This document shows positions 8,528-56,783 of a DNA stretch of 64,000 nucleotides, piece by piece. The stretch covers positions 2,995,549-3,059,548 of the forward strand of contig JAXHLS010000002.1 of assembly GCA_034522055.1 (NCBI GenBank). The letters are read 5' to 3'. The notes beneath the pieces were generated by a model. That model was not told where the DNA came from, did no database searches, and worked only from the letters and a program-made list of their open reading frames with translations. The position numbers were made by a program, and so were the translations under genes. This DNA comes from Gammaproteobacteria bacterium (lineage in GTDB: Bacteria; Pseudomonadota; Gammaproteobacteria; JAABTG01). Positions within the stretch are counted from its first letter, which is position 1. Each line of letters starts with the position of its first letter.

Positions 8528-10741
8528 CTATCCCGTGGCAGCCAGTTGCTGTTTGATCGGCAGGTTGCGCAGGCGTTGACCGGTGGCCGCGAAGATCGCG
8601 TTGAGCACCGCCGGCGCGGCGACGGCGATGGTGGGTTCGCCGATGCCACCCCAGAACCCGCCCGAAGGCATGACGATGGTCTCCACCGCGGGCATCTCGT
8701 CCATCAGAAGTGACGGGAAATCATGAAAGTTGCTCTGGGCCACGGCGCCGCCTGCGATGGTGCACTCGCCGTAGAGCAGGGCCGACAGCCCGTAGACGAA
8801 CGAGCCTTCGACCTGGGCCTCGATCTGTTGCGGGTTGACCGCGTGACCGGGATCGGTGGCGGCGACGATGCGATGGATTCTGAGTCCGCCCCCGTCATCC
8901 ACCGACACCTCCGCGCAGGCGGCGACGTAACTGCCGAAGGTCTTGACCACCGCCAGCCCGCGATGCATGCCCTCGGGCGCGCTCTGGCCCCATCCGGCCT
9001 TGTCCGCCACGGCGTCGAGTACCGCCAGGCCCTTGGGGTTGCCCGCCATCAGGCCGCGCCGGAAGTCGAGGGGGTCCCGGCCGGCGGCATGGGCCAGTTC
9101 ATCCATGAAGCATTCCATATATATGGCGTTCTGGTTGATGTTCACCCCGCGCCAGAACCCCGGTGGCACCGGCGGGTTGCGCATGGCGTGTTCCACCAGC
9201 AGGTTGGGCACGGTATAGCTGATGGCATGATCGCCCTCGGCATGAAAGCCCTGGAAGGTGACCGCATCGGCGCCGTCCTGTAAGGCCGCGGGACGCACCG
9301 TGGCGAGGATGGACTGGCCGGAGATGCGCACGTGCAGCCCGGTCAGGTTGCCGTCCTCATCGAGGCCGCCCGTGAGCCTGCACTGGGTGATGGGGTGATA
9401 GTGGCCGTGGGCCATGTCTTCCTCGCGGCTCCACAACAACTTGACCGGGGTGCCCGGCAGTTGTCTGGCGATGGTCACCGCCTGCGTGACGAAATCATGA
9501 AACGCGCCGCGCCGGCCAAATCCGCCGCCCAGGTGGATCTTGTAGACGTCGCATCTGTCGGCCGGCAGCCCCGACGCCTCGATCGCCGCCGCCAGCGCCG
9601 CCTCGCCGTTTTGCGTGGGGCACCAGACCTCGCACTTGTCTTCGGTCCACACCGCGGTGGCGTTCATCGGCTCCATGGTGGCGTGGTTCTGATAGGGATA
9701 GCGATAGGTGGCCTCGATGGTCCTCGTCGCGCCGTCCAGCGCCTCCCTGACATCACCGGCCTGGTTGCCGACAAATACATCCCCGTCGGAGGTCAGTCCC
9801 TCCTCGAGCATCCTGTCGATGGCGGCGCTGTCCAGTTCCGCGTTCGGGCCCTTGTCCCAGGTGATGGGCAAGGCCTCGAGGGCCTTGTGGGCCTGCCACC
9901 AGGTGTCGGCGACCACGGCCACGGCCTCCTCGCCGACCCGCACCACCTTGCGTACGCCGGGCATGCCGCGCACCTTTTCCCCGTCGAAGGATTCCAGCCT
10001 GCCACCGAACACCGGGCAGGCCTTGATGGCCGCGTTGAGCATCCCCGGCAGTTGTAAATCGGCGCCGAAGATCTGCCGGCCGTTGAGCTTGTCGTCGGTA
10101 TCCAGGCGCGGGACGGGCTTGCCGATGAGACGCCACTCGCCGGGATCCTTCAGTTCCACGTGCTGGGGCGGGAACAGCTCGGCGGCCGCCGCGGCGACCT
10201 GACCGTAGGTGACGGTGCGCCCGCTGGGCCCGTGGGTGATGACGCTGTTGGCGGCACGGCAGTCAGCCGTGGATACGTCCCAGCGCTCGGCCGCCGCCTG
10301 GATCAGCATCTGCCGCGCCACGGCCCCGCCCTTACGCACGTAGCGGTGGCTGTCGCGGATCCCCCGGCTGCCGCCGGTGGAGAAGCTGCCCCATACCCGA
10401 TTGCGGGCACGGTTCTCGCCGGGGGTGGGATACTCGGTGATGACCCTGTCCCAGTCGCATTCCAACTCCTCGGCCACCAGTTGCGCCAGCCCCGTCAGGG
10501 TGCCCTGACCCATCTCGGAACGGGCGATACGGATGATCACGGTGTCATCGGGCTGGATCACCACCCAGGCCCCGATCTCGGGTGTGCCCTCGGACGGCAA
10601 TTCGTCCCACTCACCCGCCCGGGCGCCGCCGCCGAGGGGCAGATAGAGCCCGAGGGAGAAGCCGGCCCCCAGGCCGGCCACGCGGGTGCCGGTGATCAGG
10701 AACTCGCGGCGGGATGGATCTAGAGGTTTCTGTTTCATCAC
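8528..10741 (-). CDS. molybdenum hydroxylase large subunit, IorB-like (Tat-exported)
   Basis: This 737-residue protein is the molybdopterin-cytosine-dinucleotide subunit of an isoquinoline 1-oxidoreductase/aldehyde dehydrogenase type enzyme. A twin-arginine leader (SRREFLITG) near the N terminus predicts folded export. Molybdopterin-binding landmarks are visible, including GGGFGRR and the GGSRGIRDS segment. The catalytic Glu of the family is present in [10 protein letters not shown] near the C terminus. The start overlaps the stop of the Fe-S subunit gene by four bases, so the two subunits are coupled. The real substrate may be an aldehyde or an N-heterocycle. No XdhC-like maturation factor or cytochrome subunit is adjacent. 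Confidence 0.88.
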
Positions 10742-13608: not shown

Positions 13609-14135
13609 ACGGGCTGTCGGGCTGAAGCCCGACCTACAGCCGGGCCTACGCAACACCCCACCGCCCATTCCTTTGGCACGGATGTAGGTCGGGATTCATC
13701 CCGACATTTCCGCCCCGACCCCCGTCGACTGCCAAGAGCAGCCGACCTACGCCTCTGTCCTTCTCCCCCGGGGAAATAGGAAATGGGAAATAGGAAAAGA
13801 TTACCACCCGTGTGTCCGCTCTGCTGAAGCCGAAACGGTGGATCCGCTGCGCCTTTTCAAACTGCTACTCCTCCCTGCGAAAGACGCGAAAGAACAAAGA
13901 GATGACGGTGGAAGCGCCACTAGGAGCGGCACCCCGCCGCGAAGGGGCCGGAAAATCGCGACGAGGGCGTCGCTCCACAGGGGTCATCGAAGCCCCCAGC
14001 CTTCTTCCCTTTCGCGCCTTTCGCGACTTTCGTAGTTACCGCTTTTTTTTAACAACCCTGACCTTCTCCCTTTTCACGTGATTTCGCGTCTTTCGCGGTT
14101 ACGCTTTTTGTAGGTCGGGATTTATCCCGACATTA
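13609..14135 (+). repeat. composite dispersed repeat, copy B
   Basis: The gap 13504-14273 has no convincing gene and holds repeat modules. Palindromes occur at about 13610-13636, 13682-13709, 13725-13753 and 14110-14135. A GGGGAAATAGGAAATGGG block lies near 13770-13790, then the linker with CCGAAACGGTGGATCCG. A module of TTTCGCGTCTTTCGCGGTTA lies near 14082-14101. It is uninterrupted, and base 14095/14096 corresponds to the point where the group II introns sit further right. A short tandem CCCACGTAGCC repeat lies just before, at about 13582-13612. Confidence 0.8.
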
Positions 14136-26911: not shown

Positions 26912-27292
26912 GGGTCTGCGTCCTTGGCGTTGGGGTACCCGCAGGGGAAAGCAATCAGCCCCGCCAGCCGCCGGGACTCGCGGCGCGACGGCGGCCAGCT
27001 CGCTAGTTCCTTCCATTCGGTTCCCGAAGGTAAGCCGATGTCGCCGTTCCCTTGCATCCTCCCGGGGCAGAGGTCGGGGAAGATGCCCTATTCCCGGCGC
27101 ATGCCAGGCGGGGTCGGAAATCGGCGGGATTGGGGTGCTGCATCCACCGCCCCCGCAACGGCGGAACCGCTCTGCTTGTTCCGCCCTACAGCACCTGCCA
27201 GCATAGAGCGTAGCTGGCCGACCCCCGACCCCCGACCCCCGACCCTGACCCCCGATCCTGACCCCGATCCCCGATCCCGATTCCCGCCCCCC
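26912..27292. repeat. gene-free gap with a dispersed repeat and a simple tandem repeat
   Basis: At 27146-27189 lies an inverted copy of the GGCGGAACAAGCGCAGCGG family. From about 27220 to 27287 there is a degenerate 6-7-bp tandem array based on GACCCCC/GATCCCC. The array ends where the frame-broken part of the window begins (nadC stop codon at 27293). No gene is seen. Confidence 0.65.
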
Positions 27293-28162
27293 TCAGACGA
27301 AGCGCATGGACAGGTCCACGGCGTGAATGTGCTTGGTGATGCCCCCCACGGAGATGAAGTCCACGCCGCTGGCGGCGACGTCGGCGACGGTCTTGAAGGT
27401 TGACGTTTGCCCGAGGCCGCCGAGGGGGACGCGGCCGCCGGCTGACGGCCACCGGCGCGGGCCAGGTCCTCCACGGCGAAGGTCGTCGAACAGGACTCGG
27501 GGCCGGTCGACGTCGCTGGCCAGGGCCTCCCGCAACTGGGCCAGGTCCTCCACCTCCACCTCCACGGTGGTCTGGGTCGCTCGAGCTTGCGCCGGGCGTC
27601 AGCGAGCTCGCGGGGCCGATGGAGCCGGCGGTGGCGATGCGGTTCCTCGACGAGCACGGCGTCGTAGAGACCCATGCGGTGGCTGGGTGCCGCCGCCGCA
27701 GGCCACGGCGATTTCCCGGGCGGTGCGCAGGCCCGGCACCGGTGCTCTGCGGGTATCGAGGATGGGCACCGCCGCTGTCCCCGGCACCCCGCTTGACGTA
27801 GTGGCGGGCGACGGTGGCGGTGCCCGACAGGACGTTCGGAGGAAGGCGTTCCAGGCGCGGCGACGCTCGGCCGTGAGCAGGCGGCGGGCGCGGCCGATCC
27901 ACTGGTGCACAGCATCCGGTCGGGCCTGCACCACGTCGCCGTCCCGGGCCGTCCAGTTCACCTGGGCGGCGCCGTCGAGAGACCTGCAGGTAGCACCTTG
28001 TCGAACCACGGTCCGCCCGCCAGCACCGCGTGCTCGCGGCTGGTCACCACGGCCGAGGCGTCGTCATCCTCCGGCACCAGGGCGGCGGTGACGCTCGCTG
28101 CGCCCGATGTCCTCGGCCAGGGCGCGGGCGACGGTGTTACGGAGATTCGCGCGGGCGGGCAT
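27293..28162 (-). pseudogene. nadC: nicotinate-nucleotide pyrophosphorylase (frame-broken)
   Basis: NadC makes nicotinate mononucleotide from quinolinate and PRPP in NAD synthesis. Start ATG 28162 (MPARANLRNTVARAL) and stop 27293 are clear. In between the protein signal jumps frame many times: TWFDKV-like start, LDTRRAPVPGLR, HRMGLYDAVLVEE, VEVEVEDLAQL, VDFISVGGITKHI and DLSMRFV are all readable in different frames. The order and spacing are those of a full-length enzyme of about 285 residues. So many small indels in a conserved gene look like sequence error more than decay. Confidence 0.8.
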
Positions 28163-28228
28163 GGGGCTTCCTCGATGGGCGGGTCCGAATATCCCGTTCG
28201 GTCTTCGTGGCGTCACGGTCCCCGACAT

Positions 28229-29619
28229 CTACGGGCGTGTCTCATCCGAGCGCGCGGCGCGGTACTGGCGGGTGAGGCTGAATACCACCGGCGACAGCAG
28301 GGCCAGGGCGATGAGATTGGGTACGGCCATGAGGCCGTTCATGGCGTCCGCCAGCAGCCACAGCAGGTTCACCCCCTCGTTCTCACCGGCGGCCAGGGCC
28401 CCCAGGGGATGGCGACGATCCACAGCAGCCGGTAGGGCAGGATGACCCGCACGCCGAAGATGAACTCGGCGCAACGCTCGCCGCAGTAGCTCCAGCCGAG
28501 GATGGTGGTGAAGGCGAAGATGATGAGGCCGATGCTCACCACGTAGCGCCCCTCGGGGTAGCCCGGCGTCGAAGCGCCGCCGCAGACAGTGGGCCTCCGG
28601 CTCCACCGGTGATCCAGGCGCCGGAGATGACGATCACCAGGGCCGTCATGGTGCAGACGATGATGGTGTCGATGAAGGCGCCCAGCAGCCCGATGGCGCC
28701 CGTGCGCACCGGGTTCCCGGGCGCGCCGCGGCACGGCGATGGGGGCGCTCGCCGAGGCCGCGCCTCGTTGGAGAACACCCCGCGGGCGACGCCGACCGAC
28801 GGCCATCCAGACGCTGGCGCTGCGGAAGGCCGCTGCGCCGCCGCGGTGCCGGGCGAAGGCATCGCCTACGATCGGTCGGCGAGGGCGGCGGGTACCTGGT
28901 CCACCTGGAGCCCATGATGATCAGGCGCACAGGAAATAGGCGATGGCCATGAAGGGCGCACGGCCGCGCCGCCACCTCGGCGATGCGGGCGAACGCCGCC
29001 CAGGATCACCGCGCCCCGCGAGGACGGCCAGGAGGAGCCCGGTGACCCAGGTGGAGACATGGAAGTTGGCGGCCACGGCGCTCGGCCACCGAGTTGGACT
29101 GGATGGTGTTGCCGATGCCGAAGGCCGCCACCATGCCGAACACGGCGAACAGCAGGCCCAGCCACTGCCAGCGGTGCCGAAGGCCGTTCCTGACGTAGCA
29201 ACATGGGGCCGCCGCACATGCATGCCGGCGCCTCGTCGGTCTTCCCGGCAGCGGACCGCCAGCACCGGCCTCGGCGTACTCGGCGGCCACGCCGAGCAGG
29301 GCCGATGAGCCCACATCCAGAACACCGCCCCGGGGCCGCCGATGGCCGGATGGCCGCGGCGCACGCCGGCGATGTTGCCGGTGCCGATGGCGGCGGCCAG
29401 GGCGGTCATGAGGGCCTTGGAAGGGAGTGATGTCGCCCTCCTCGGCGGAGTGCCGGACTCCGCCACAGGCCGCGGCGATCCGCGCCGATGCCCGGCCGAC
29501 GGTCATGAAACGCAGGCCCACCGTCAGGTAGATGCCCACGCCGAGCAGCAGGGCCAGCATCGCGCGGCCCCCAGACGAAGCCCGACAGGATTCGAGCAGC
29601 GGGTTCGACGGTCTCCCAT
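28229..29619 (-). pseudogene. sodium:alanine (AGCS) symporter (frame-broken)
   Basis: The protein signal of a full-length symporter of about 460 residues is spread over all three frames. Seen are GVGIYLTVGLRFM (N-terminal helix), [11 protein letters not shown] (a family hallmark), [35 protein letters not shown] and, at the end, LTRQYRAARSDETRP before a TAG at 28229. The family imports alanine or glycine with sodium. Start is taken at ATG 29619. It lies directly upstream of nadC on the same strand. The number of indels is much higher than expected for a single inactivation event. Confidence 0.8.
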
Positions 29620-29816
29620 TGGCGGGTTCTCCCTTACCTCACGGACTGGATCGCTCACGCGTCGTCATCGCCCGGGCTCCGAGGCGCCCGGCGGCACCGT
29701 GGTCAACGACGACGCGCTCCGAAGGCACATCGCTGCCGCGCCGCGGCTCGAGGTCGGGTTCGATCCCGACCTTCGACTCCGCCGCCACGCACCTGGCGCC
29801 GGGCCAGCCACCCGCG

Positions 29817-30295
29817 GGCCGCTCGGGCTGAAGCCCGACCTGGAGGATCAGCGGCGGCCACCGCCTGTTCCTGTGGCACGGGCTGTAGGTCGGGTATCCA
29901 TCCCGACATTCAATCCGACCCGCACGCACCCCGTGCCGGGCCGAACCACCGCGCGGGCTGTCGGGCTGAAGCCCGACCTACAGAACATTTGCCACCGCCC
30001 TGTTCGGTGCACGGCACGTCGGTTGCTCTCGGCAACCGACATCCGTGCCGGCAAACCGCCAAGACTCCCGTCGGCTGCCGAGAGCCGACTGACAGCTTCT
30101 GCCCCCATATCCCCGCCCAACATGCCTTCACCCTGTCCTCTCTCCCCAGGGGAAATGGGAAGGGGTAAATGGGAAAAGATTACCATTCGTGCGTCGGCTC
30201 CGCTGACGCCGAAACGGGTGGATCCGGTGCGCCTTTTCAAACCGGCCCCTCATCCCCGATTCTTCTCCCTTTTCGCGTTGTTCTCGCGTCTTTCG
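29817..30295 (+). repeat. composite dispersed repeat, copy C (5' part)
   Basis: The gap after the symporter start holds palindromes at about 29826-29850, 29884-29912, 29959-29983, 30017-30040 and 30071-30095. The GGGGAAATGGGAAG block lies near 30150-30175, followed by the conserved CGCTGACGCCGAAACGGGTGG linker region and the TTTTCGCG...GTCTTTCG module. The module stops at 30295, where a group II intron begins. The rest of the same repeat (CGGTTACGCTTTT and a GTCGGG palindrome) resumes at 31138. Confidence 0.85.
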
Positions 30296-31137
30296 GTGGC
30301 GCCAGGCAAAGCCTGGGAAAGGAGGAAAGAGAGTATCTGAGGAATGAAACGGCTTGAAACGGTTCCACCGTGCACCGTCGGTGTAAGTCCTGAAACCGGT
30401 AAGGCAGACCCGCCACCGGAAACTCTGAGCGTCGCGCGGGCTGGGGGCGACCCGTTCGCCGCGAAGCGTACACAGGGGGTGTGCAGGCCGCGTGATAGAG
30501 CCTCGAAAGGCGCAGCGTGGGGCCGACGCTTTCGAAGGGGCGGGAGGCAACAGGGTGCGGACTGAGTGGGTCGGGTCGTGCTCCCCGCCGGGGTCGGAGA
30601 GCAGGGCATGTACACAAGGGTCACCCAGGAACCTGGGAGGGCTCATGCGCTCCTTGCGGATAGTGCGATGCGGGCGTCGCCTAAGAAAAGGCCCCGGAAC
30701 GACCACCCGAGGGGTGCCGGGCGGGTGGACGCGAAGACGGCACGACGCAAGGTACCGCCAAGCGAAGGCAACGAAGTGCGGCGGGATGGCGGATGAGCAA
30801 TCGGAGTCGGCGGATAGGACCCGATGAGCGTGGGGGAAACTCACCCGAGAGGACCCACGGGAGGGAAGCGGCCGACCGGCGCAGACAGCTTCTCGGAGGG
30901 ACAGATGACGCGGACATCGAGCCGCGAGATCATCCCAACGCGACAACGGAAGCGCGCGGAACTGGCGAGCGCAGCCCGGGGCAGGTGGGCCATGCCCATC
31001 CGAGGGTCTGTCTCTGACGAGCGGGGTACGTGGTGTACGCCACGTAGCGTTTGCTACATCGAGGAGCCGGATGCCTTAATTGGGCACGTCCGGATTCGCG
31101 GGAGCTGCGGGTGAGCAATCACCCGTGGCCACCCGAC
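30296..31137 (+). ncRNA. ORF-less group II intron, copy 1
   Basis: An 842-base self-splicing-type element with no reverse transcriptase gene. The 5' end is GTGGCGCC (copy 2 has the canonical GTGCG). Domain V is 31064-31097: GAGCCGG opens it with the AGC catalytic triad, and GCACGTCCGG carries the usual two-base bulge. A domain VI hairpin follows, and the element ends in CCCGAC. Removing it joins TTTCG to CGGTTACG, exactly the uninterrupted repeat at 14091-14103 and 2599-2611. The last six 5'-exon bases CTTTCG (30290-30295) are complementary to CGAAAG at 30504-30509, a good EBS1 candidate. Splicing and mobility would need a maturase encoded elsewhere. Open frames within it are not conserved between the two copies. 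Confidence 0.88.
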
Positions 31138-31316
31138 CGGTTACGCTTTTAGTGGGTGTCGGGTGAAGCCCGACCTACAAGGATCAGCCGCCGCCTGTTC
31201 CTGTGGCACGGCTGTAGTGTCGGGATTCATCCCGACATTCAATCCCACCCCACGCACCCCGTGCCGGGCCACTCCTTCCTGACCTTTTCCCTTTTCGTGT
31301 TGTTTCGCGTCTTTCG
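31138..31316 (+). repeat. dispersed repeat between the two group II introns
   Basis: It starts as the 3' exon of intron 1 (CGGTTACGCTTTT), goes through GTCGGG palindromes at about 31157-31183 and 31211-31238, and ends with another CCTTTTCCCTTTTCG ... GTCTTTCG module at 31316. That module is the 5' exon of intron 2. Two adjacent repeat copies therefore each received an intron at the same position. Confidence 0.8.
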
Positions 31317-32955
31317 GTGCGCCAGGCAAAGCCTGGGAAAGGAGGAAAGAAGTATCGAGGAATGAAACGACTTGAAACCTTTCACCTTACATTTCGCGCC
31401 CCGCGACGAAGTTTTTCCGAATTACTTGGTTGGCGCGAAGGCGTATGAATGTAGGGTGGATGGTGCATGGATTTGTGTGGCAACTCAATGGCTTGTCGAT
31501 CAACTCGTTATGGCCCGATCAAAATTTTAGTAGGCAAGGGCGCGGGGAAGCGGCACGCTATGGGCTCAAACCAACGCCTGTGCCCATAGCCGATGAACGA
31601 TCTCGATACCCGGACCCAACAAGTCGATGCGATGCCGCTGCTCAAGCACGCCATGCAGGAACTCCAGCTCTATGCGCTGTTCGACAAGTACGTCCCCAAT
31701 GACACGAATGCCGAAATCGAACCGGCGCAGGTGCTGTGCATGGTGCTCACGAACATCCTGCACGCCCCGACGCCGCTGTACCACATCCCACAGTGGCTGG
31801 AGCCCTTTACGGATGGATTGGGCGAGCCGGGAACGCAGGCGCAGAAGTACAACGACGACCGCAGCGCGCGGGTGCTCGACAAGCTATTCGATGCCGATCG
31901 GCTCCTGCTCACGGAGCTGAGCGCACGGGTCATTAAGGTCCACCAACTCGAAAACCGAGCGCTGGCACAACGACACCACCAGCGTGACCCTCACGGGCGC
32001 CTACGAGACCCCAATCCCGATGCGCTCATCCCCCGCCACGGCTACAACAAAGACCACCGGCCAGACTGCAAGCAGATCGCCTTCGGCCTGAACGTCACCG
32101 CCGACGGCCATGTGCCGCCACTGCACTGGGAAGACGGCAACCGCAGCGACGCCACCACCCATCAGACCAACTGGCAGGCGCTACGCCAGCTGCTCGGCCG
32201 CAGCGACTTCATCGACGTCGCCGACAGAAAGCTCTGCGCCCAGGACAACCTCGACCGCATCGCCCAACACGGCGGGCAGTTCATCACCGTCATGCCCCGG
32301 AACTTCAAGCCCGTCACCGCCTTCCTCGAGCAGATCCGGCGAGGAACCCACATCCCCTGGCAACAGCAGCTGAGCCGCCCCAATCCGCGCAAGAAAGGCG
32401 ACGAACAACACGATCGCCGGTTCCAGGCCCCACAGCTGGCAGGGCCATCGCATCGTGTGGGTCCACACCGAGAGCAAAGCCGCCTGGAACGAGGCAATCG
32501 TGATCGGACCCTCGACAAGGCCGAACAGGCGCCAACCGAACTGGCCGGCAAGCTCGGCCGGCATCGACTCAAGTCCCGGCAGGCCATCGAAAAGGCCGGC
32601 GACAAGGCGCTCGGCAGCGCCCATCCCGACATCGACGCGCAGCTGAGCGAGCACCACCGCTCCGAAAAGGGTGAAAGTCGGCCCGGACGCCCCGGCCCCA
32701 ACAGCCGGCACGAAACCCGCGAGCACGTCACCTTCGAGCTGCACTGGCAGCGCAACGACCGCGCCATCGCCGCCGCCCGGCGCACCGACGGACTGTTCCC
32801 GCTGCTGCACAATACCGACCTATCTCCCGAGGAGGTCTTCCTCGCCTACAAGGACCAACCCCATCTGGAGAAGCGCTTCAGCGCCGGAAGACCGTCTTGC
32901 AGGTCGCCCGGTATTCAAAAATAACCCGCGCATCGAGGCCATGCTCCTGATATGG

Positions 32956-34471
32956 ATTGACCTGTCAACTACTGGCACTGGTTCTTCATCTTTGTGTTTC
33001 CCGTCAATGGTTTCAGTTCAGGACACGGAAGGCGTTTAGCGACGGTGGATCACTCTGATATGCGTGGGTTGGTTACCGACCGGACTTCACTGCGTCGCGG
33101 AGCTGCCCTTCTCTACGGTCGAGGGTCTGCCCTCCCGCAAGAGGACGCCACATAGGAGCGCCAGGGGTTCTCCTCACCGGCCTCCCATACCCTGAACCCA
33201 AACCACTGACGGGCACGACATCAGGCCAGCTGCCTCGACTGGCGTGCGGCCTGCCCATGACCTCGCAGGCGATCGCCCAGATAAAGCCGGCCAGTTCCCG
33301 TGCCACGGCGCTGGTCACCCGGTTCTTCTCCTTGCCGGCCCGCATCAGGGCCTGGTAGCGCCCGCACAGGCGTTTCTGCGCCGCCCAGGCAATGGCCTGC
33401 ACCGCCGGCGAGGTTTGCTCGGCCCGTCGCTCGATGCACCGCGTCTGTGCGCGCCGGGAAGCGAGTAGTTCCAAGCGGCCTCCGTCAGCACCCGGCGCAC
33501 ATGGCCGTTGCCGGTGCGGGTGATGCTGCCCTGGCGCCGCGACCCGCCGCTGGAGTGCTCGCTCGGCACCAGTCCCAGATAGGCCATCAGCTGGCGTGGG
33601 CGAGTCGAAGCGGGTGATGTCACCCAACTCCGCCAGCGTCGTCATGGCCGTGATGAGACTGACCCCGCGCAAGCGCCATCAGGGCCTCTACCACCGGCGC
33701 GCAGAGACCAGCTCTTCAGCGCCCGGCGCATCTGCGCCTCCAGTGTCGTGCCACCCGCCGCTGGGCGACCTTGACAGCCTCGATGTACTCCTGCAGCACG
33801 ATCTGCTGCACGGGCGTATCGGATTTCGACCGCGCTCCAGCCAGCGCAAATGCGCCTGGGTCCAGCGGCTCGTCCCTTCGCGATACACCTGCCCGTGGCG
33901 CAGCAGGAAAGCGCCCAGCCGCTGGCGGGCCTTGCAGCTCCGAGCGACTTCATGTCGTCACGGGCCCGGGTCAGATCGCGCATGGCTTCCTGCTCCAGTG
34001 TCCGGCACCCACACCGCCGTCAGCTCGCCCGGCCGGTGCAGCCGCGCCAGGCATCAGCGCATCGCGCCGGTCCGTCTTCAGCCGCTCCCCGCCTTGCGCG
34101 GAATCAACGACGGGGCCACCACCGTCGCACTCGTGACCCAACGGCCGTCAGAGTCACGGTACAGCCCGTAACCGCAGGGCCCCGCCTCATAACAGAAGCT
34201 CAGCACCTCACCATCCGGACTCAGCCTGCTTCACCAGCTTTGTCACCGCCGCCGCCGTAGGCCCAATCGTCCCCACGGTACACCGGCTCGCCCCGTCCCC
34301 AACCCGCCACCGCGACCGCAATGCTGTCCCTTGTGTACATCTAATCCCACGTAATCACTGGTAAACTCGTTCACGACCTGCCCCTCGATTATGGCTCTGT
34401 GCTAAATGTTCCCAACCCCAAACATAACCCACGTATTCGAGGTTGCGACCAATCCACAAGGTTCGCCGTGG
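32956..34471 (-). mobile_element. IS110-family insertion sequence nested in the IS1634 transposase gene
   Basis: The segment of about 1.5 kb interrupts the IS1634 transposase gene between TGG (32953-32955) and TTC (34472). A TGG also stands at 34469-34471, so a 3-base duplication is possible. No long terminal inverted repeats are seen, as is usual for IS110 members. The transposase gene fills most of it on the minus strand. Confidence 0.78.
33073..34374 (-). pseudogene. IS110-family DEDD transposase (frame-broken)
   Basis: From a GTG at 34374 the N terminus reads VNEFTSDYVGLDVHKG, the RuvC-like start of IS110 transposases. The C-terminal Transposase_20 (helix-hairpin-helix) region is clear in LMAYLGLVPSEHSSGG, GSITRTGNGHVRR and AWNY, with the catalytic-Ser context of the family. 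Frames change several times between, so the gene is not translatable as written. The terminal stop is uncertain; 33073 is the end of the last in-frame stretch. Confidence 0.78.
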
Positions 34472-35714
34472 TTCGTCGCCTCGATGCTGCTGAGCCTCAT
34501 CGAACGCAAAATCCGGGCCCAGATGCATGAGCACAATATCAGCGCCACCCATCCGCTTCTTCACGGCTGAAGACCAAGGCGCCGACCTGGCGGGTGATCC
34601 GTCGTTTCTTCGAGGGCATCAACCTCAGCACCATCCTTCAAGACGGCAGCCCCATCCGCTCCACCCTCAAGGGGCTCACACCCTTGCACGAGCAGGTCTT
34701 GAGAAGACGTCGTTGATTTCCTGATAACGTCTATCGACAACTCCGCGACGGATGGTGGAACTTCGCTCCCTCATAACTCCCGGTACAGCGATTACGCCAA
34801 CGCTTCTTTAAAAATCCGTCCGAAATCCGAAATCCGCAAACTCCTGAAATAACTCGCGCGAAATGTAACGACTTGCAACCTTCGTTGTGACCCCGTCGGC
34901 GCGCAAGTCCCGAACCGGTAAGGCCGGATCCCGCGACCGGAACCGAGTGTTGCGTGGATTGGGGGCGCCCCCGTTCGGCGAAGCGTACACCAGGGGGTGT
35001 GCAGGCCGTGTGATAGAGCCTCGAAAGGCGCAAATGTGGGGCCGACGCTTCTCGAAGTGACGGAAGGCAACAGGGTGCGGACCGAGTGGGTCGGGTCCGC
35101 GCTCCCCACCGGGGTCGGAGGGGCAGGGCGTGTACACGAGGGGTCACCCAGGAACCTGGAGAGGGCTCCATGCGCTCCTTGCGCGTAGTGCGATGCGGGC
35201 GTCGCATGAGATAGTGCCCCAGGAACGACCACCGAGGGGTGCCGGGCGTGGTGGACGCGAAGACGCTGCACGACGCAAGGTACCGCCAAGCGAAGGCAAC
35301 GAAGTGCGGCGGGATGGCGGATGAGCATTCGGAGTCGGCGGATAGTACCGATGAGCGTGGGGAACTCACACCGAGAGGACCCCACGGGAGGAAGCGGCCG
35401 GCCGGTGCAGACAGCTTCGGGAGGGACAGATGACGCAGACATCGAGCCGCGAGGAATCATCCCGAACGCGACAACGGGAAGTGCGTGGCACCGGCGAGCG
35501 CAGCCCGGGCAGGTGGGCCATGCCCATCCGAGGGCCTGTCTTGACCAGCGGGTACGTGGCGGTACGCCACGTAGCGTTTGCTACATCGAGGAGCCGGATG
35601 CCTTAATTGGGCACGTCCGGATTCTGTGGGAGCCGCGGGCGAAGCAATCACCCGTGGCCACCCGACCGGTTACGCTTTTAGCAGGTCCGGATCATTCCTA
35701 CAGGAGCAATCGTT

Positions 35715-56571: not shown

Positions 56572-56609
56572 GTTGCTAGCAGACGCGCCAGGTCAAGCTA
56601 CACTCTTGC

Positions 56610-56714
56610 ATTTCCCATTTCCCATTTCCCATTTCCCATTTCCCATTTCCCATTTCCCATTTCCCATTTCCCATTTCCCATTTCCCATTTCCCATTTCCC
56701 ATTTCCCATTTCCC
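56610..56714 (+). repeat. tandem array of 15 perfect ATTTCCC units
   Basis: The 7-base unit ATTTCCC is repeated 15 times without a single mismatch over 105 bases. Degenerate short versions of the same unit occur inside each composite dispersed repeat. There are no spacers, so it is not CRISPR. It lies in the gap between cysS and the convergent hypothetical gene. Confidence 0.95.
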
Positions 56715-56783
56715 AATCGCCAACCATCTCTCCCTGCCTCTCCAGCTCCTCAAGACCCCAAGCTACGCGCTCGACACGGCCTG

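Follow-up and report, generated by a model that had tools for sequence, protein, structure and literature searches.

Bacterial ORF-less group II introns are rare, and nearly always occur alongside related intron-encoded proteins (IEPs) (PMC4424553). Those of Thermosynechococcus elongatus (TeI3 families) are present in several copies mobilised by IEPs in trans, and display, in greater detail, a history like the one proposed here (PMC2882425). Group II introns have also been recorded within dispersed extragenic repeats, as in Pseudomonas putida KT2440, where 2 of the 9 introns tabulated in the published report lie in REP elements (PMC1525189). In this work, we characterized an ORF-less intron contained in a 64,000-nucleotide stretch of a gammaproteobacterial genome (hereafter the window), together with its target repeat, its homologous copies and the reverse transcriptases of the genome. 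With the integration of these analyses, it appears very probable that the intron descends by ORF deletion from a mobile group II intron and spread by retrohoming with an IEP supplied in trans, the likeliest supplier being an ORF-containing sibling that has been lost.

The intron (copy 1) occupies 842 nt at window positions 30296-31137 (+), with ends set from the empty repeat and the homologous copies. Its domain I (30384-30603, +) scored 99.7 bits against the Rfam model RF02005 (group-II-D1D4-6; E 5.8e-27), above the gathering score of 49, as anticipated by the original prediction, which had also correctly given the intron its ends, its domains V and VI and the 3' terminal CCCGAC. Domain V (31064-31097, +) folds with an AGC triad and a two-nucleotide bulge (fold of 31063-31098), and the Rfam domain V models gave a sub-threshold match only (17.4 bits); domain VI (31098-31137, +), recognized from its fold, carries a bulged A31131 at position -7 relative to the 3' splice site. 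At the junctions, TCTTTCG precedes the intron start GTGGCGCC, and the intron end CACCCGAC is followed by CGGTTACG. With respect to the 5' GUGYG and 3' AY termini, the copies starting at 31317 and at C2:2180658 begin with GTGCG and finish with AC, and copy 1 begins with GTGGCG; its 5' end therefore differs from the GTGCGCC of the other copies by one extra G, which may be either a real insertion or a sequencing error. At the sequence level, 30296-31137 is confirmed as a group II intron, a self-splicing type of RNA, situated in an intergenic repeat.

The uninterrupted repeat reads CTCCCTTTTCGCGTCATTTCGCGTCTTTCG^CGGTTACGCTTTT, with the caret marking the insertion point (TTTCG^CGGTTACG), and the consensus of 15 aligned empty sites is CTCCCTTTTCGCGTCATTTCGCGTCTTTCG^CGGTTACGCTTTTTG, usually followed by GTAGGTCGGGATTCATCCCGACA, a stretch that looks REP-like. 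Allowing up to 3 mismatches, the core pattern was found at 176 sites genome-wide, versus 1 for a reversed-pattern control; with up to 2 mismatches, 105 sites were counted in this genome, 16 in the congeneric sister genome G001 and 0 in 18 other relatives. Empty copies are present in the window itself, at 14082-14103 (+; G000:C2:3009630-3009651) and 2599-2620 (-; G000:C2:2998147-2998168). The window also holds a tandem array with a 7-base step at 56609-56715, which matches a segment (L087 1546-1593) of the sister genome's intergenic repeat module.

A genome-wide search for further copies, expected at this fixed point of the repeat, returned two more complete ORF-less copies, both inserted exactly there. 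The clean copy, at C2:2180658-2181529 (RF02005, 141.4 bits), lies at the identical point of a variant repeat (GTGTCTTTCG^GTGCGCC...CCCGAC^TAGTTACGCTTTT). A different group II intron, which encodes an IEP itself (a 361-aa open frame), stops about 60 bp upstream of it (L051 about 8561-8690, corresponding to C2:2180560-2180690), and a second member of that family, at C6:8092-8673, is near the target repeat copy C6:9310. Copy 2 is in the next repeat of the window and is divided into a 5' part at 31317-31386 (+), delimited by alignment of the copies and junction positions, and a 3' part at 34869-35666 (+; RF02005, 110.7 bits at 34904-35124), with CGGTTACGCTTTT as 3' exon; like copy 1, it is flanked by TCTTTCG, its IBS1, here at 31310-31316 (+), and CGGTTACG. 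The two parts are separated by an IS1634-family element of 3,482 bp (31387-34868, unassigned strand), with 13/13 terminal inverted repeats (TTACATTTCGCGC/GCGCGAAATGTAA) and imperfect direct repeats of about 19 bp, and since such repeats indicate one split intron, the reading of both parts as separate fragments was rejected. The NCBIfam model transpos_IS1634 scored 128.5 bits, over its cut-off, and IS110 30.4 bits, under its cut-off; the element contains an IS110-type remnant, and its transposase is apparently frameshifted. In total, 3 complete insertions stand against about 176 repeat sites, and heavy use of the large target supply envisaged for this intron was unsupported or overstated.

Pairing between the exon and the intron supports target choice by EBS-IBS recognition, as had been proposed, at a position other than the one first designated. 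The covariation set comprised the six related introns whose 5' junction could be read (the C2:2180658 copy, the G001 intron, a Halomonas plasmid intron, L071, L074 and L078). With ID3 loop limits placed by eye on the RF02005 alignments and the best register chosen within the loop, its pairing with the final seven bases of the exon keeps a constant register in 6/6 introns, and only 1 of 720 permuted assignments, the true one, reaches the observed EBS1-IBS1 score; the covarying pairs include CGAAAGG/TCTTTCG, CGAAATA/TATTTCG and ATCCCAT/ATGGGAT. By register and covariation, EBS1 of copy 1 is CGAAGGG (30533-30539, +), which forms 7/7 pairs, two of them G-U, with IBS1 TCTTTCG, the terminal bases of the repeat's 5' half (30289-30295, +), and EBS1 of copy 2 is CGAAGTG (35053-35059, +; 6/7 pairs). 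The original prediction had assigned EBS1 to CGAAAG at 30504-30509 (+), a motif able to pair with CTTTCG; it lies in an internal loop of domain I conserved across the family, including introns whose IBS1 sequences are unrelated, and its observed pairing is equalled by 148 of 720 permutations; that assignment was therefore rejected. CGAAAG possibly belongs to EBS2, since a matching CTTTCG occupies -15 to -10 in the C2:2180658 copy and lies close to these positions in G001; in the Halomonas relative, however, it is GUUGAUC, right after the conserved CGAAA, that pairs with GGTCAAC (read by eye), and for this reason we make no claim for EBS2.

The sister genome G001 (C224) carries an ORF-containing form of the intron (L084 2312-4323; RF02005, 144.8 bits), whose IEP is a 476-aa reverse transcriptase/maturase (TIGR04416, 345.5 bits) with Pfam RVT_1 at residues 130-358 and GIIM reaching residue 452 of 476 (22.4 bits; cut-off 23), and for which the Pfam/NCBIfam profile search reported no endonuclease (En) domain. 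This intron follows CGCTATATTTCG, outside the repeat, about 80 bp downstream of an ORF that we take to be ychF; the contig stops exactly at the intron 3' end, leaving the 5' exon as the only readable one. Relative to it, 3/3 ORF-less copies have lost two internal segments of domain IV (deletions of roughly 440 and 740 nt) with identical breakpoints, and all three retain N-terminal ORF remnants. In copy 1, an N-terminal remnant at 30793-30984 (+) matches IEP codons 1-35 and 10-63, its frame broken by indels, and a short remnant between the two deletions (30985-31032, +), common to 3/3 copies, was recognized by alignment with L084; in the clean copy, the N-terminal 60 codons are 90% identical to the G001 IEP. 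The view of the intron as a primary ORF-less specialist of the repeat is, on these data, unsupported or overstated: it arose through deletion of the ORF, and the relative that still contains the ORF occupies another site.

At 31 sites, the three ORF-less copies are set apart from G001, versus only 3-4 sites shared by each pair of copies, so their divergence is, by sequence comparison, star-like. These counts, together with the shared breakpoints, indicate that the deletion occurred once, before the copies separated; the same counts led us to reject a recent tandem duplication as the origin of copies 1 and 2. The locus orthologous to the window in G001 contains no introns, repeat or IS, with 511 bp between matches versus about 6.1 kb in the window. 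Upstream of copy 1, a nadC-like and a symporter-like ORF (27224-29633) are broken over several frames and are intact in the sister genome, and copies 1 and 2 have many single-base indels that are absent from the C2:2180658 copy. Frame breaks and indels around the window copies may reflect either local sequencing error or decay, and their base-level detail is uncertain.

Altogether, these observations are consistent with the following history. The sequences show that the ancestral intron, whose ORF specified a reverse transcriptase/maturase lacking an endonuclease domain, lost most of this ORF through the two domain IV deletions, and that the shortened ribozyme retained domains I-III, V and VI, with an EBS1 (CGAAAGG) that pairs with TCTTTCG, the final unit of the dispersed intergenic repeat. 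With the IEP acting in trans, the lariat would have reverse-spliced after TTTCG in at least 3 repeat copies and then been copied into DNA; the copies would have decayed since insertion, one of them through insertion of the IS1634 element. Several points weigh against this account, namely the absence of an intact close IEP, the 3 complete copies for about 176 sites, and the many indels and altered 5' end of the window copies. Furthermore, other repeat modules are common to the flanks of copy 1 and copy 2, and some part of the spread may possibly have occurred through DNA recombination.

Regarding the source of the protein, the genome is unusually intron-rich, with 41 RVT_1 matches and several multi-copy families with open frames of 330-581 aa. 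No intact close IEP was found in this genome, where the parental IEP is represented by terminal remnants only, and the nearest intact ones, of 581 aa at C6:214007 and C4:35391, are 44% identical; since genome completeness is 98.16%, a copy of the IEP may have been missed. A domain V pattern search over 84,980 genomes returned nine introns, whose IEPs, where present, are only about 38-41% identical, a relationship of type and no closer; the highest IEP identity among 274 genomes of the class is 46%. The proposal of a maturase elsewhere was upheld as to spread that needs a protein in trans, and was not supported as to a maturase within the genome. Present mobilisation by other IEPs of the genome with relaxed specificity, such as the 581-aa IEP of C6:214007/C4:35391, is favored by the 41 RVT_1 matches, by the intron at C6:214007 being of the same Rfam type (114.9 bits) and by the relaxed driver IEPs known in T. 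elongatus (PMC2882425); however, the identity of just 44% to the cognate IEP and the decay of the window copies make this explanation unlikely. Within the retrohoming account, the most likely source is instead the ORF-containing sibling, since lost from this genome.

We also consider it unlikely that a single ORF-less intron landed once and was then multiplied, with no retrohoming, by DNA recombination between repeats or by segmental duplication. The setting would be favorable, as about 180 bp separate copy 1 from copy 2 in a region rich in repeats, a similar sequence of ~100 bp is present upstream of both, and the repeat supplies homology for gene conversion. Nevertheless, copies 1 and 2 are no nearer to each other than to the C2:2180658 copy, about 845 kb off; moreover, the 5' repeat halves differ, as does the 3' exon (CGG vs TAG), and the shared flank module is 350 bp from copy 1 versus 46 bp from copy 2.

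A further variant, which we regard as improbable, would be an orphan ORF-less lineage specialised on the periodic intergenic repeat and still driven by the ~44%-identical IEP of another intron family; if true, the repeat family would represent a renewable homing ground. Finally, dead intron fragments falling into repeats by chance, a notion to which the many indels of the window copies and the 3' fragment with an ORF remnant beside a non-repeat flank at C2:1486786 might lend some credence, can hardly be reconciled with exact ends at both junctions, a single insertion point used three times and the EBS1-IBS1 pairing. The flank of that fragment differs from those of the complete copies, and it retains 31 codons from the IEP C-terminus, with 84% identity to the G001 protein; an RF02005 match of 51.4 bits, barely above the gathering score, overlaps it on the opposite strand (L052 6701-6832, +).

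The proposed retrohoming of an ORF-deleted derivative places this intron close to several known systems. The resemblance to the T. elongatus introns includes one ORF deletion with common breakpoints, N- and C-terminal ORF remnants, good EBS-IBS matches, and one family with a constant position in an IS200-type element; in contrast, many intact related IEPs remain in that organism, whose introns target IS, intron ORFs and intergenic sites instead of a short non-coding repeat (PMC2882425), so that of the features of that system, copies with a common ORF deletion and remnants are found here, and a close intact IEP in the genome is not. RmInt1 of Sinorhizobium meliloti (IIB3/class D) likewise has an IEP without an endonuclease domain and homes to one defined position in the multicopy element ISRm2011-2, although RmInt1 contains its ORF and its target is an IS, and the likeness concerns IEP domain content rather than class placement (PMC5894124). 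C.te.I1 of Clostridium tetani is also ORF-less, and its host genome has no related IEP gene, but it occupies a single locus in a surface-layer gene and is associated with alternative splicing (PMC4424553). The P. putida introns share the location within an abundant extragenic repeat, which is there the palindromic REP, and, as tabulated in that report, this holds for only 2 of 9 copies (PMC1525189). Precedents exist for ORF-less introns as well as for IS and REP targets, and what is unusual in this case is the target together with the absent driver. The loss of the ORF and the multiplication in a new target can be read here from the sister-species ORF form, the common deletion and the repeat-matching EBS1, and the homing target is not an IS but a short repeat that is non-coding.
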